Shown piece after piece: positions 24,145 to 31,755 of a DNA stretch of 37,094 nt. Where the stretch lies: positions 1 to 37,094 of the forward strand of contig CAIVVQ010000023.1 of NCBI GenBank assembly GCA_903909465.1. The letters run 5' to 3'. The notes under the pieces are model-generated. The model did not search any database, had not been told where the DNA came from, and saw only the letters and a program-made list of their open reading frames with translations. The position numbers and the translations under genes are program-made. Position 1 is the stretch's first letter, and each line of letters opens with the position of its first letter. The stretch comes from an uncultured Opitutia bacterium. GTDB lineage: Bacteria > Verrucomicrobiota > Verrucomicrobiia > Opitutales > UBA953.

Positions 24145-24241
24145 CGGACAGGCTTCCATCAAGTGATGGCAGGGGGTGATGTCAAACCCGCCTCCCGCTT
24201 CCCCTTGCCAATCATGCAACTCCTCATTTGCTAATCTATGC

Positions 24242-24724
24242 ATGTCCAAGCCGCTCCAGTGCTCCGTTTGCGACGCAGTCGCCACGGTTCACCTTACCCA
24301 AATCACCCAAGGCAAGGTGAACAAGGTTCACTACTGTGAAGCCTGTGCCAACAAGGGCGGGGCGGGGGATGCAGCGGTTTTCCAGTTAGCGGATGCGGTC
24401 ACGGCGGCGACAGTGGCCCCGGCGATCGTCTGCCCGACTTGTCAGTTCAGCGATGTCGACTTCCGTCGGTCGGGTCGCTTGGGCTGTCCGGATTGCTGGC
24501 CAGTATTTCTCGATGCTTTGGATGGCTTGCTGACGAAAGTGCAGCACCAAGTGCAACACATTGGCCGAGCCCCGACCGGTGCTTTAGCCGTCGGACAAAT
24601 TCGTCACCGCTTACAATTAGCCCAAGTGGAAATCGCTAAGGCAATTGCCGCCGAGGATTATGAAGTGGCCGCTCGCTTGCGCGACGAAATCACCCAGCTC
24701 TCGGCTCAACTACCAACCGAATAA
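24242..24724 (+). CDS. mcsA: McsA-like protein: zinc-binding CxxC motifs plus UVR domain
   Basis: CSVC...CEAC, CPTC...CPDC; UVR motif LAQVEIAKAIAAEDYEVAARLRDEITQL; directly upstream of mcsB. Confidence 0.82.
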   Translation: MSKPLQCSVCDAVATVHLTQITQGKVNKVHYCEACANKGGAGDAAVFQLADAVTAATVAPAIVCPTCQFSDVDFRRSGRLGCPDCWPVFLDALDGLLTKVQHQVQHIGRAPTGALAVGQIRHRLQLAQVEIAKAIAAEDYEVAARLRDEITQLSAQLPTE

Positions 24725-24730
24725 TTTTTT

Positions 24731-25804
24731 ATGTCCGTTCAAGATATCCTCGCCGCTGAAAATGAACTGACCCACATGCTGGGCGCCCAGCAGGCAGTGG
24801 TATTGAGTACTCGCGTACGCTTGGCGCGTAACCTTTCCGGTTTCCCTTTTCCGGGTTGGGCGAAACCAGCGCAGCGTAAAGAAATCGCCAACCGTTGCAT
24901 CGATGCGTTCACCAAGTTGCCGCGTTTTCGCAAGGCCCACGTTTTCAAGATGGGCGACTTGCTGGATATGGAACGTGCGGTGCTCGTCGAACGTCACTTA
25001 GTTTCCAAAGAATTAGCCGCAGGCAAGAGCGGGGCGGCAGTCATCAGTCGCGACCAAACGTGCTCCGTGATGATCAACGAAGAAGATCACATTCGCCTGC
25101 AGGTGGTGAAGGCGGGTTGGCATTTGCGTGGCACTTGGAATATCGCCGAACAACTTGACGAGGCCCTTGGTGCGTCGCTGGGCTTGGCCTTTTCGGATCG
25201 TCTCGGATTTTTAACCGCCTGTCCGACCAATGTTGGCACGGGTTTACGCGCTTCCGCCATGGTGCACTTGCCCGGACTTTGTTTAGGCGGTCACATCGAA
25301 AAAGTTTCACGCGCCCTCAGTCAAGATGGACTCGCCGTACGCGGTTGGCTTGGCGAAGGTACGGAGGCGGCCGGTAATATTTTCCAAATTTCCAATCAGC
25401 AAACCTTAGGGCTTTCGGAAGATGCGATTATGAAACACCTGGGCACGTGGATTAAATCCCTCGTTGAACAGGAATGGAATGCACGCCGCAAATTAGCCGC
25501 TGAAGAGGGTCCACGTTTTGTGGATCGTATTGCGCGCTCCTTGGGCGTGCTACTTTCGGCGCATTTACTGAGCAGTGCCGAATCGATGAACATGCTTTCG
25601 CATTTGCGCATGGCGTGCGACATGGGCTGCTTGCCCGAAGCCAATCGTCACATCATTGATCGCCTCATGATTGAGGGTCAGCCTGCGCACGTGCAGTCGC
25701 GTCGCGGTGAAGAGTTGGATAGCGATGGTCGCGACACGAGGCGCGCAGCTTCGATTCGCGAAGCGCTGTCGGGTTTCCCTGAAGTCGGACCCCCGACGGC
25801 TTAG
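24731..25804 (+). CDS. mcsB: Protein arginine kinase McsB (ATP:guanido phosphotransferase family)
   Basis: VVLSTRVRLARNLSGFPFPGWA, LTACPTNVGTGLRASAMVHLPGL, C-terminal RDTRRA fitting the RDxxRA motif. Confidence 0.92.
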   Translation: MSVQDILAAENELTHMLGAQQAVVLSTRVRLARNLSGFPFPGWAKPAQRKEIANRCIDAFTKLPRFRKAHVFKMGDLLDMERAVLVERHLVSKELAAGKSGAAVISRDQTCSVMINEEDHIRLQVVKAGWHLRGTWNIAEQLDEALGASLGLAFSDRLGFLTACPTNVGTGLRASAMVHLPGLCLGGHIEKVSRALSQDGLAVRGWLGEGTEAAGNIFQISNQQTLGLSEDAIMKHLGTWIKSLVEQEWNARRKLAAEEGPRFVDRIARSLGVLLSAHLLSSAESMNMLSHLRMACDMGCLPEANRHIIDRLMIEGQPAHVQSRRGEELDSDGRDTRRAASIREALSGFPEVGPPTA

Positions 25805-26169
25805 TCGGCCGAAGTATCTTTTTTAGTGCCGTCTTTGCGCGATAACTCATCGAGCAAAGATTGCACCCGTGCAACGCCGCCGGTGACGTCGTCTTCTGCG
25901 AAGATGAGGTCAGGCGTGTTTTTCATCTGTAAAATTTTTCCGACCGTGGATTTTAATTCCAAGCGCACGCGTTTAAGTAGGGCACGAGCCGCTTTCTTTT
26001 CAACTGGTCCACCGGAAACCGCGTAGCCCACGCGGAGCTGACGGAGGTCGGGCGAAACGGTGGCCTGTGTGATCGTGATGAGTGCCGACTCTGCGCTCCA
26101 GTTGCGACGGAGCGTCATCGAAACTTCACGTTGGACTAATTCAGCGACCCGTAACTGACGTTGCGACAT
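25801..26169 (-). CDS. rbfA: Ribosome-binding factor A
   Basis: RVAELVQREVSMTLRRNW, TITQATVSPDLRQLRVGYAV; downstream of infB. Confidence 0.9.
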   Translation of the reverse strand: MSQRQLRVAELVQREVSMTLRRNWSAESALITITQATVSPDLRQLRVGYAVSGGPVEKKAARALLKRVRLELKSTVGKILQMKNTPDLIFAEDDVTGGVARVQSLLDELSRKDGTKKDTSAD

Positions 26170-26172
26170 GCT

Positions 26173-28584
26173 TTAGAGGCTGGGGCGGACTTGTAACACC
26201 TCGATGACTTCGATGGTGTCGCCAGGCAGGTACTCGTCGTAGCCACCCAACTTGATACCACACTCGAAGCCAGCTTTGACTTCCGAGGCGTCGTCCTTGA
26301 ACCGACGAAGGGTTTCGACTGGGCCGTGGTGGATGACTTGTCCTTTGCGGACGAGGCGAGCCTTGGCCGCACGTTTGACGGAGCCTTCGGTGACCATACA
26401 GCCAGCAACTTTGTGATCCTTGCCGAGAGGGAAGACGGCACGCACTTCGGCGGCGCCCATTTTGTTTTCCTTGGTCTCTGGATCCAGCAACTCAGCCATC
26501 GCTTCTTTCACGAGGGTGATGAGTTCGTAAATAATGTCATGCGTGATGACGCGAACGCCCGTGCGTTTGAGGTGCGCTTGCACACCGTTTTCAACTTTAG
26601 TGTCGAAGCCCACAATCAGTGAGCCCGCTGCTTCAGCCATTTGCACATCGCTCTGGGTGATGGGTCCAACGGAGCCACCAACGATTTCGAGGCGAACCTT
26701 GGTTGACTTAATTTCTTCTAAGCAACCTTGCAGCGCTTCGAGTGTGCCATTGACGTCGGCCTTCAGTAGGACGCGTAAAATCTTTTCCTTATCTTTCTCG
26801 AGTGCAGCCATCAGGCGGTCGAGGTCCGACATGCCAGGGCGACCCGCAGGGGCACTGGAGGCACCAAGCGCTTCAGCGGCCTTGCGTGCAGCGAGTGCGG
26901 CTTCATCCGCGAGCTCACGGGCTTCGCGATCGTTCTTAACGGTACGGAATTTAGTGCCAGGTGCAGGAGTTGCGTCCCAACCCAAGACGAGTGCAGGTGT
27001 GCCCGGCGTAGAGCTTTGTAAGCGCTGACCATTCTCATCCATCAACGCTCGTACCTTACACCAGGTTTCGCCACAGACGAAAGAGTCGCCAGGTTTCAGG
27101 GTGCCTTTTTGAACGATGACCGTCGCAGTCGGACCACGACCGGTTTCCATTTGCGATTCAACGATGACACCTTGTGCGGGGCACTTGGGGTTCGCTTTGA
27201 GGTCGAGGATTTCCGCCTGCAGTAAAATGGATTCTAAAAGTTCAGTCATGCCCGTACCTTTAAGCGCCGAGACGGGACAGGTAATGGTTTCGCCACCCCA
27301 ATCTTCAGGGGTGATGCCGCGCTGTTGCATTTGTTGCTTCACGCGATCGATGTTCGAACCCTTGGAGTCGACCTTGTTAATCGCACAAACAGTCGCAGTG
27401 GCGTGCTTCTGCGCAAACTTTAGGGCTTCTTCAGTCTGAGGCATGAAGCCGTCATCCGCCGCGACAACGAGTACGGCAACGTCGGTGACGCTGGCACCGC
27501 GCTCGCGCATTTTTGCGAAAGCGGCGTGACCAGGGGTATCGAGGAAAGTTACGGAGCGACCTTTATACTCAGGCTTTTCGCCTTGGTACTTAACGGAGTA
27601 AGCGCCGATGTGTTGGGTGATGCCGCCGGCTTCACCAGAGACGACATTGGATTTGCGGAAGAAGTCGAGCAGGGTGGTTTTTCCGTGGTCGACGTGACCG
27701 AGTACGCAAACCACTGGCGGACGGGCCACCATGAGCGCGGGATCATCTTCGGAGGCCTTCTCAACTTTTTTGACCGGTTGCGCGCCTTCGCCGCGGTGAC
27801 GAATTTCTAAAGTGTAACCATGTTTTTCTGCGACCTTACGAGCGTCGGCGTCATCAATCACCGAAGTGACACTGACGACTTTGTTGAACTCCATTAAGGA
27901 GCCGATGACTTGGAAGGGCTTTAAATTAAGGGCGATGGCGAAATCGCGCACGACAATCGGAGGACGAACCGTGACGGTTCCTTTGCTGCCCGGAGTGATG
28001 GCGCTGCTGCTGGCGGCAGGGCGATTAACAATGGGTGCAACGGGCGGACGGGCAATCGGTGGAAGCGGCGCTGGGCGATTGCTCGCAGGGGTTTGATTTC
28101 CTGGCGTAATTACAATCGGCGGCAATTCATTGCGTGGAGCGGAGCTCGATGGACCGACGCGCGGAAGTGGTGGTGGGGTGCTGGTTACACGAGGCGCAAT
28201 GGGAGTGGCGACGCGTGGAGGAATTGAAACCGGTGGAGGGGTGCTGGGCTTAGCAGTAACTGGCGCAACTGGCTTAGGTGCTTCCACTTTCACTGGAGCC
28301 GGTGCGGGCTCAGGTGCCTTCGGTGCTTCTTCGACAGCTTTCTTCGGAATTTTATCTGCAATGAATTTCAAGAAGTCATCACGATAGGTTTTCGAAAAAT
28401 TACTCGAGGCGGCTGGCTTCTTGCCTTCAGGGTAGACGTAATCTTTGTATTCCGGGGACGCCTCCACAAACTTGTCGGCCAAGGCCAAGAGTAACTTGAC
28501 CTCGATGCCAAGGTCCTTGGCGACGTCGCTATAACGCTGGGTCGCTGTGGATTTTTTGGCTTCGGGTTTTTTCTTCTCGGTCAT
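26173..28584 (-). CDS. infB: Translation initiation factor IF-2
   Basis: [51 protein letters not shown]; Pro/Ala-rich N-terminal linker. Confidence 0.96.
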
Positions 28585-28630: not shown

Positions 28631-29881
28631 TTAGCCTACGGTCTTTGCTTTTGCGACTGCTTCCAACACCGTCGAAATTTCTTCCGGGGTGAGGTCAGTG
28701 CCAGCAAAGTCTTCCGGACCTACACCTTCAAAGGAGGCCACGCTCTCGATACCGAGACCGATAAACTTGGCGACCAATTCAGGTGAGAGTTGGAGTTGGG
28801 CAGCGAGGCGGATGGCCTTTTCGCCGAGCTGAGCTTCCACGCTTTCAGCGGCACGAGTCGACTTCGTGATGTCGAGGCGCCAGCCCATGAGCTTCGAGGT
28901 CAGGCGGGCATTGCGGCCCTTGCTGCCAATCGCGATACGCATGTCGTCTTCATCCACTTCGAAGTGAATCAAGCGATTGCGTTCATCGATGTGAACATTG
29001 CGTGGTTTCGCCGGGCGAATCGCCTCTTCCAAAAGTTGGAGAGGCTCTGGGTGCCAGCGGATGATATCAATTTTCTCACCGTTCAATTCTTTCACGATGT
29101 TGCGAACGCGGGCACCACGGGCACCAACGCAAGCACCGACGGGGTCGACCTTAGGATCCGATGAATCCACGGCGATCTTCGTGCGGTAACCGGGATCGCG
29201 CGCCATGGCGGCAATCTTGACGGTCTTGTCGGCGATTTCGGAAACTTCGAGTTCGAGTAAGCGACGAACGAAATTAGGGTGCGCACGGGAAAGCACGAAT
29301 TCACGGCCACGTTGAGTGTCTTCGCGAATTTCGAGCAACAAACAGCGAATGCGATCGCCGGTGCGGAATTCTTCACCTTGGCAGCGCTCAGCGCGAGTGA
29401 GTACGGCTTCTGCGGAGCTGAGTTCAACAACAACATTGCCGCGCTCGGTGCGACGAACAACGCCGGTGACGATGTCACCAATCTTGTCTTTGTACTCCTT
29501 GAAGACTTGGTCCTTCTCAATCTTGCGGAAACGCTGATTGAGCAATTGTTGGGTGGTCTTAGCGGCGATACGACCGAGGTCGGCCACGGCGATGGGGCGA
29601 CGAACCTCTTGGCCAACGCGGGCGTCGACATCAAGGGTGATGGCCATCACAGGGTTCATTTCACGCAATGGGTCCGAAACGGCGTCGGTCACGGTGAAGA
29701 CGGCGTAGGCGTCGAGCTTGCCGGTCACGGGGTCGGCGACGACCTCGATGTTTTGGCCAGCCATGATGGACTTCTCGACCGAGGCCTTGATGGCTTCGGC
29801 GATGAGTGCACAGGCTTCATCCTTAGGGATGTGCTTTTCTTTTTCGAGGTACTGCAGGTAGGGCTTAATATCTACGCTCAT
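28631..29881 (-). CDS. nusA: Transcription termination/antitermination factor NusA
   Basis: S1/KH layout; DPVGACVGARGARVRNIVKELNGEKIDIIRW, RIAIGSKGRNARLTSKL; single C-terminal HhH-like repeat. Confidence 0.95.
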   Translation of the reverse strand: MSVDIKPYLQYLEKEKHIPKDEACALIAEAIKASVEKSIMAGQNIEVVADPVTGKLDAYAVFTVTDAVSDPLREMNPVMAITLDVDARVGQEVRRPIAVADLGRIAAKTTQQLLNQRFRKIEKDQVFKEYKDKIGDIVTGVVRRTERGNVVVELSSAEAVLTRAERCQGEEFRTGDRIRCLLLEIREDTQRGREFVLSRAHPNFVRRLLELEVSEIADKTVKIAAMARDPGYRTKIAVDSSDPKVDPVGACVGARGARVRNIVKELNGEKIDIIRWHPEPLQLLEEAIRPAKPRNVHIDERNRLIHFEVDEDDMRIAIGSKGRNARLTSKLMGWRLDITKSTRAAESVEAQLGEKAIRLAAQLQLSPELVAKFIGLGIESVASFEGVGPEDFAGTDLTPEEISTVLEAVAKAKTVG

Positions 29882-29917: not shown

Positions 29918-29947
29918 AAAAAAGGCGGGTCCAAGAATGGACCCACC
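29918..29947 (-). terminator. Intrinsic terminator in the nusA 5' leader (candidate attenuator)
   Basis: Minus strand GGTGGGTCC-ATTCTT-GGACCCGCC-TTTTTT, 37 nt upstream of the nusA ATG. The gene behind it (ettA) is divergent, so it does not end another minus-strand gene. Confidence 0.7.
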
Positions 29948-29969
29948 TTAATGAAAGGTGACTTCCGAG

Positions 29970-30078: not shown

Positions 30079-31755
30079 ATGGCGGACGAAAAAGTAATTT
30101 TTACGATGACGGGGGTCACGAAGTACTTCGAGAAGAAGCCGGTCTTCCGCGATATTTCACTTTCCTATTTCTTTGGCGCCAAAATCGGCGTGCTCGGACT
30201 GAACGGTTCAGGCAAATCCACTTTGCTGAAAATCATGGCCGGTGAAGACAGTGAATTTGACGGCGAGATCAGTCGCGTGCCAGGTTACACCGTGGGCTAC
30301 CTAGCACAGGAGCCGCGGTTGAATGAAACTCAGACCGTCGCCGAAAATGTGCAGCAAGCGGTCGCCGAGATGAAAGCGTTACTCGAAGAGTACGATGACA
30401 CGTTTGTGAAAGTTTCAGAAACCGACGACGCGAAGGAGCAGGAAAAGATTTTAGCCCGCCAAGGTGAAATTCAATCCATCCTCGATGCGCGTGGCGGTTG
30501 GGATTTGGATGCGCGCATGGAAATGGCGATGGAGGCGTTGCGCTGTCCCGCTGCGGACACGATTGTCTCAAAACTTTCGGGCGGCGAGAAGCGTCGCGTG
30601 GCCTTGTGTCGACTGCTCTTAATGGAGCCTGACATTCTTTTGCTCGATGAGCCGACCAATCACCTCGACGCCGACACGGTGGATTGGTTGGAGCGACACT
30701 TAAAAAATTATAAGGGCACAGTCATCGCCATCACGCACGATCGTTACTTCTTGGATAATGTGGCGGGCTGGATTTTGGAATTGGATCGCGGACGTGGCGT
30801 ACCCTGGAAGGGTAATTATTCATCCTGGCTTGATCAAAAGCGCATTCGACTCGAAGCCGAAGAAAAGCAATCCGCGGGCCGTCAACGCTCGATGGAACGC
30901 GAACGCGAGTGGGCGAGCTCATCGCCTAAAGCTCGCGTGGCAAAAAATAAGGCACGCTTACGTGCGTACGAACAAATGCTCACGCAGGATCAAGTGCAGA
31001 GCGAGCGAGCGACTGAAATTTGGATTCCGCCAGGCCCACGTCTCGGCGGTGCAGTGATTGAGGCAAAGGGCATGATGAAGGCCTACGGTGATCGCGTCTT
31101 GATGGAGGACGTAAACTTTTCGCTACCCGCCGGCGGCATTGTCGGAATCATCGGACCGAATGGTGCGGGTAAGACGACTTTGTTCCGCATGATCACGGGC
31201 GAAGAGAAGCCCGACAAGGGAACACTGACCGTTGGCGACACCGTGAAACTCGCCCACGTCGATCAATCGCGCGATTCATTGCCCGCGGATAAGCCATTGT
31301 GGGAAGCAATTTCGGACGGACAGGAAATGGTGCACCTCGGAAAAATTGTGGTGCCTGCTCGAGCGTACGCCGCGCGTTTCGGTTTCACAGGCGATGTCCA
31401 ACAACGCAAGGTCGGCATTATGTCCGGTGGAGAGCGTAATCGCATTCACCTGGCCCGATTGATTAAAGCGGGTGCCAATGTCTTGCTGCTCGACGAGCCA
31501 ACGAATGATTTAGATGTGAATACCATCCGCGCCCTTGAAGATGCACTCGAATCTTTCGCAGGATGCGCAGTGGTGATATCGCACGATCGCTGGTTCCTCG
31601 ACCGTGTGGCCACGCATATTTTGGCCTTTGAAGACGACGGGAAAATCGTTTGGCACGAAGGGAATTACGGCGACTACCTTGAGGACCGCCGCCGCCGACT
31701 CGGCATCAGCTCCGATACGCCACGTCGACCTAAATACCGCCGGCTTACGCGTTAG
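30079..31755 (+). CDS. ettA: ABC-F family ATPase, energy-dependent translational throttle protein EttA
   Basis: Two ABC domains (GLNGSGKSTLLKIMAG, GPNGAGKTTLFRMITG), LSGGEKRRVALCRLLL and SGGERNRIHLARLI signatures, no TM segments. Start at 30079 rather than 30058. Confidence 0.92.
   Translation: MADEKVIFTMTGVTKYFEKKPVFRDISLSYFFGAKIGVLGLNGSGKSTLLKIMAGEDSEFDGEISRVPGYTVGYLAQEPRLNETQTVAENVQQAVAEMKALLEEYDDTFVKVSETDDAKEQEKILARQGEIQSILDARGGWDLDARMEMAMEALRCPAADTIVSKLSGGEKRRVALCRLLLMEPDILLLDEPTNHLDADTVDWLERHLKNYKGTVIAITHDRYFLDNVAGWILELDRGRGVPWKGNYSSWLDQKRIRLEAEEKQSAGRQRSMEREREWASSSPKARVAKNKARLRAYEQMLTQDQVQSERATEIWIPPGPRLGGAVIEAKGMMKAYGDRVLMEDVNFSLPAGGIVGIIGPNGAGKTTLFRMITGEEKPDKGTLTVGDTVKLAHVDQSRDSLPADKPLWEAISDGQEMVHLGKIVVPARAYAARFGFTGDVQQRKVGIMSGGERNRIHLARLIKAGANVLLLDEPTNDLDVNTIRALEDALESFAGCAVVISHDRWFLDRVATHILAFEDDGKIVWHEGNYGDYLEDRRRRLGISSDTPRRPKYRRLTR

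Follow-up and report, generated by a model that had tools for sequence, protein, structure and literature searches.

The region analysed here lies on a contig from a freshwater member of the Verrucomicrobiota, an uncultured Opitutia bacterium (Opitutales; UBA953), and the window comprises positions 1 to 37,094 of contig CAIVVQ010000023.1 of assembly GCA_903909465.1. The nusA operon is encoded on the minus strand and is preceded by a short leader, for which a preliminary description had proposed an attenuator made of two competing hairpins. The features are as follows:

30079 to 31755, plus strand: ettA (ABC-F; NF008775, 878 bits), the divergent neighbour, outside the element
29999 to 29994, minus strand: TTGACA, -35 hexamer of the nusA promoter
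29975 to 29970, minus strand: TTAAAT, -10-like hexamer, 18-nt spacer from the -35 hexamer, four of six positions matching TATAAT
29963, minus strand: predicted transcription start (A29963), first base of AGTCACC, placed by its distance from the promoter and by the conserved AGT(T)CACC
29960 to 29944, minus strand: hairpin 1, CACCTT-TCATT-AAGGTG, 6-bp stem with loop TCATT
29960 to 29955, minus strand: CACCTT, 5' arm of the putative antiterminator; CACCT is constant in the genus, and the arm changes with the terminator arm in sister genera
29949 to 29944, minus strand: AAGGTG, common to the 3' arm of the putative antiterminator and the 5' arm of the terminator
29949 to 29938, minus strand: terminator 5' arm AAGGTGGGTCCA, 12-bp stem
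29934 to 29937, minus strand: terminator loop TTCT
29933 to 29922, minus strand: terminator 3' arm TGGACCCGCCTT, with a compensatory T-A to C-G change in the group of leader L043
29923 to 29918, minus strand: T-tract of six T, predicted 3' end of a short leader RNA of about 46 nt
28631 to 29881, minus strand: nusA, 416 aa (TIGR01953, 335 bits; NusA_N and KH_5)
26173 to 28584, minus strand: infB (IF-2), nusA operon (TIGR00487, 637 bits)
25801 to 26169, minus strand: rbfA, nusA operon (PF02033)

Near the end of the operon, a gene for a protein-arginine kinase (McsB-like) occupies 24731 to 25804 on the plus strand, with a 182-aa frame just upstream of it (24176 to 24724). The preliminary description had argued from the divergent neighbour that the terminator can act only on the nusA transcript; a terminator belonging to the upstream gene was ruled out, as ettA points away and the promoter lies between ettA and the terminator. 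In two relatives (L071 and L073), another, co-directional gene takes the place of ettA, and the leader is the same as elsewhere.

The promoter-like pair TTGACA-N18-TTAAAT is present with the sequence and coordinates first given for it. TTAAAT did not appear in the output of the promoter scan because it matches TATAAT at only four positions, and this hexamer is also weak in relatives. The TTGAC element, on the other hand, precedes hairpin 1 by 38 to 42 nt in each of the 48 parsed loci of the family, and this spacing places hairpin 1 at the extreme 5' end of the predicted transcript; from the sequence, we infer a start at about position 29963.

The letters and coordinates of hairpin 1 and of the terminator likewise agreed with the window sequence. 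Hairpin 1 has a predicted energy of -5.9 kcal/mol (z -5.65 against shuffles), the 12-bp terminator stem is the longest among 10 terminator-like sites in 4 kb, and the 81-nt leader region as a whole folds with a z of -4.34, with none of 200 shuffles as good. The preliminary description further held that the hairpins share GGTG (29944 to 29947) and that only one of them can form. The overlap is real and in fact extends over the whole of AAGGTG, but the exclusion is partial: when hairpin 1 is forced in folding calculations, pairing persists in the upper part of the terminator (GGUCC/GGACC), which stacks on hairpin 1, and this upper stem is then several nucleotides away from the U-tract. It is thus the lower terminator stem that is predicted to be mutually exclusive with hairpin 1. 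As the terminator is 2.5 to 9 kcal/mol more stable, hairpin 1 could act only kinetically. When a growing transcript was folded, hairpin 1 persisted (P of at least 0.93) as long as no more than 39 nt of RNA were free, and the structure flipped at 40 nt; given the general footprint of the polymerase, the modelled flip would fall at about the moment when the enzyme stands at the end of the U-tract. A leader peptide starting from the TTG in the terminator loop was also considered and ruled out, as that TTG is missing in relatives.

To assess conservation, relatives were collected by their NusA, the leaders upstream of nusA were compared, and the two-hairpin pattern was searched genome-wide with the reversed pattern as control. 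Of 55 genomes of the genus, 48 have exactly one copy of the motif, among them all 22 near-complete ones, while the reversed-pattern controls gave no match in the genus genomes. Wherever placements were compared with nusA coordinates, which was done for part of the 48 genomes, the motif lay directly upstream of nusA. Among the misses, the assemblies of G006, G008 and G022 are without a nusA match, a contig end falls inside the leader in G204, and the leaders of G210 and G212 have a variant that differs at two bases, AAGGCGTG; in G021, the nusA match is interrupted by stops (this sole match, at G021:C2:258433-259574, is in pieces with several stops, perhaps due to frameshift errors in the assembly). 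Outside the genus, the motif was found in genus g101, in five of its six genomes, whereas genera g98, g99 and g100 gave no match to this sequence pattern, and neither did 18 other families of the order. All aligned genus leaders have the six T, and both hairpins are conserved in relatives, whereas the preliminary description had named a lack of such conservation as grounds for refutation. Pairs were counted on sequences anchored by hand, as MAFFT had put CACC in the wrong place when aligning the genus leaders: the CACCT/AGGTG stem is nearly unchanged in the genus, and no two-sided change in hairpin 1 was seen within it.

The variant AAGGCGTG replaces AAGGTGGG in L160 (on the same contig as L031) and L180, the closest relatives of the window. 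It introduces an A-C mismatch into hairpin 1 and a T-C mismatch into the terminator, so that both hairpins are weakened, and judged by its sequence this leader is a natural weakened form of the putative switch. An assembly error behind the L031 variant is unlikely, because a second genome (L180) carries it.

Beyond the genus, nusA in Verrucomicrobiota is usually preceded by a terminator whose stem is GTGGG/CCCAC, GTGGG/CCCGC or GCGGG/CCCGC. Among 72 loci from outside the genus, which include a few that are not from Verrucomicrobiota, 54 have a terminator of any kind (4.1 % of shuffles) and 42 the terminator core (0.6 % of shuffles). The core in the window reads GTGGG..CCCGC, and GGG/CCC is near-universal in the terminators found across loci. 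In 31 distinct stems, the nine-pair core shows changes on both sides at four pairs, a count that none of 500 shuffles reached and that was far lower in slid controls. Four nusA leaders (L141, L145, L153 and L155) have a terminator GTGGAAAC..GTTTCCAC in place of the GGG..CCC core.

By these sequence features, the verrucomicrobial nusA terminator is the general rimP-leader that Naville and Gautheret (2010, PMC2965389) described in other bacteria, for which no antiterminator was visible and NusA was proposed as the best candidate regulator. The preliminary description had recognised neither this known attenuator type nor the lack of rimP. Both have a short GGG..CCC terminator with a U-stretch in the leader of a (rimP-)nusA-infB operon, some tens of nucleotides ahead of its first gene. 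In the general form, the U-stretch follows right after the stem, 4 to 130 nt before the gene; in the window, the six T are followed after 36 nt by the ATG of nusA, and the leader stands directly upstream of nusA-infB-rbfA, but rimP is absent. The fourth pair of the general GGGc..gCCC is C-G, whereas the window has U-A; this pair is printed in lower case in the source and is hence not strict, and C-G does occur in the L043 group, as it does in several further families of the order. What makes the leader in the window a variant is the upstream hairpin that competes with the terminator, as no antiterminator is visible in the general form. The gammaproteobacterial rimP leader of Rfam (RF01770) concerns the same operon and the same terminator/antiterminator idea, but is a form with two tandem terminators; the window had no hit with E≤1 to it, and the Verrucomicrobiota loci tested had none either, whereas E. 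coli scored 102 bits. The L20 leader (RF00558) was rejected, with 24.4 bits in the window against a gathering threshold of 58.7 and with the wrong operon.

Between genera of the family, the upstream arm and the terminator arm change together. They read CACCTT/AAGGTG in g1 and g101, GCTTTC/GAAAGC in g99 and g100, and CTTTC/GAAAG in part of g98; outside the family, several genera of the order have CACTTT paired with AAAGTG or AAGTG. Across 52 representatives, which are not phylogenetically independent, the upstream segment paired better with the terminator arm of its own locus than with permuted ones (p=0.00005), phylogeny not being modelled. By subset, p was 0.015 for the order including the family, 0.001 for other members of the class and phylum, and 0.23 for the rest of the order alone. 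This permutation between loci was chosen after the result of a locus-by-locus shuffle had been seen; the latter, which has low power, gave p of at most 0.05 for eight of 14 leaders in g1, none of six in g98, and three of 32 other-order leaders. In two leaders of the same class, L198 and L200, and in L221, which belongs to the same phylum, 10 to 12 bp of upstream sequence pair with the terminator arm (-9.7 to -12.4 kcal/mol), which is possibly a stronger antiterminator. The antiterminator hairpin of the preliminary description is thus supported by an upstream arm that, from genus to genus, changes together with the terminator arm, and its covariation with the terminator is, on sequence grounds, supported rather than proven.

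A rival reading is that this is a plain rimP-leader in which the terminator alone matters and is stimulated by NusA, hairpin 1 being a 5' stabiliser of the RNA or a by-product of the initial transcribed sequence. It would fit the general form as reported, with no antiterminator visible (PMC2965389), and the many other loci of the phylum in which no upstream pairing is seen. Yet CACCT is constant in 25 distinct genus leaders, though it lies outside the terminator, while the adjoining bases vary, and the coordinated change of the two arms between genera is not what a dispensable upstream arm would suggest; we regard this reading as unlikely, if the most serious of the competitors. Alternatively, CACCTTTCATTAAGGTG could be a palindromic operator in the DNA, bound by a repressor just downstream of the start site, as its two 6-bp halves are perfect inverted repeats, 5 bp apart, with their centre about 12 bp into the predicted transcript. 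Within the genus, however, the half-sites CACCT and AGGTG are between 6 and 9 bp apart, a variation more in keeping with an RNA loop than with a DNA operator and the ground for rejection; the single occurrence per genome, the retention of GU-compatible changes and arms that change sequence in step with the terminator also speak against an operator, leaving it very improbable.

The attenuator reading further differs from the general scheme in doing without rimP. Neither RimP_N (PF02576) nor the RimP C-terminal domain (PF17384) was found in any of 145 Verrucomicrobiota genomes at least 90 % complete, a set that includes several single contigs, whereas 10 of 14 control genomes matched each of both domain models; RimP_N was also found in none of 54 relatives. 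RimP thus seems to be absent from the phylum, absence here meaning a RimP within reach of both domain models, which a strongly diverged one would escape. In two deltaproteobacterial loci (L106 and L108), a frame just upstream of nusA resembles the end of RimP by eye. That RimP or another ribosome-assembly factor reads the leader, a feedback whose RimP version Naville and Gautheret raised as a possibility (PMC2965389), is scarcely to be expected here, as the persistence of the leader without rimP argues against RimP as its regulator. This persistence and the covarying, antiterminator-like upstream arm appear to be what is new here.

Two further leaders offer instructive parallels. In B. subtilis, NusA stimulates termination in its own leader and thereby autoregulates (Mondal et al. 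2016, as reported in PMC12288461); there, and by prediction here, an intrinsic terminator sets transcription into nusA and NusA is the signal, which is a proposal in our case. Autoregulation was shown by experiment in B. subtilis (PMC12288461), whereas for the window leader we infer it from homology to the rimP-leader and from the experiments reported for B. subtilis and E. coli. The account of S. agalactiae rimP-nusA (PMC4448216) describes a terminated leader RNA of 31 nt, similarly very short, that begins at the same site as the full transcript; it differs in that rimP is present, and the passage on this RNA mentions no antiterminator.

Taken together, strict conservation, position, occurrence once per genome and compensatory changes support an attenuator in the nusA leader, and it is probable that nusA-infB-rbfA is controlled by a lineage-specific rimP-leader in which hairpin 1 is the antiterminator and NusA exerts negative feedback via dwell time. 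Polymerase starting at about 29963 would first make the 5'-terminal hairpin CACCUU/AAGGUG, and the upper terminator stem would then form beside it. By the time the U-tract has been transcribed, completing the terminator would require the 3' arm (GCCUU) to displace hairpin 1, and transcription would then end at about 46 nt. Hairpin 1 would act as an antiterminator by making termination depend on how long the polymerase dwells at the U-tract. NusA is proposed to lengthen this dwell, such that high NusA would cause more termination and low NusA more readthrough.

The rimP-leader has been called the most ubiquitous attenuator, and which product of the operon it senses had been left open. A whole phylum that seemingly lacks RimP but keeps this leader in front of nusA represents a natural experiment, and its outcome favours NusA over RimP. 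More tentatively, and with somewhat less than even confidence, Opitutales and possibly Verrucomicrobiota more widely may have kept and co-evolved, without rimP, a kinetic dwell-time switch that measures NusA activity without a further factor, its 5'-end antiterminator being so placed that the terminator closes only after a sufficiently long pause at the U-tract. The compact two-hairpin form offers a testable, protein-minimal model of how pausing could be turned into gene control.
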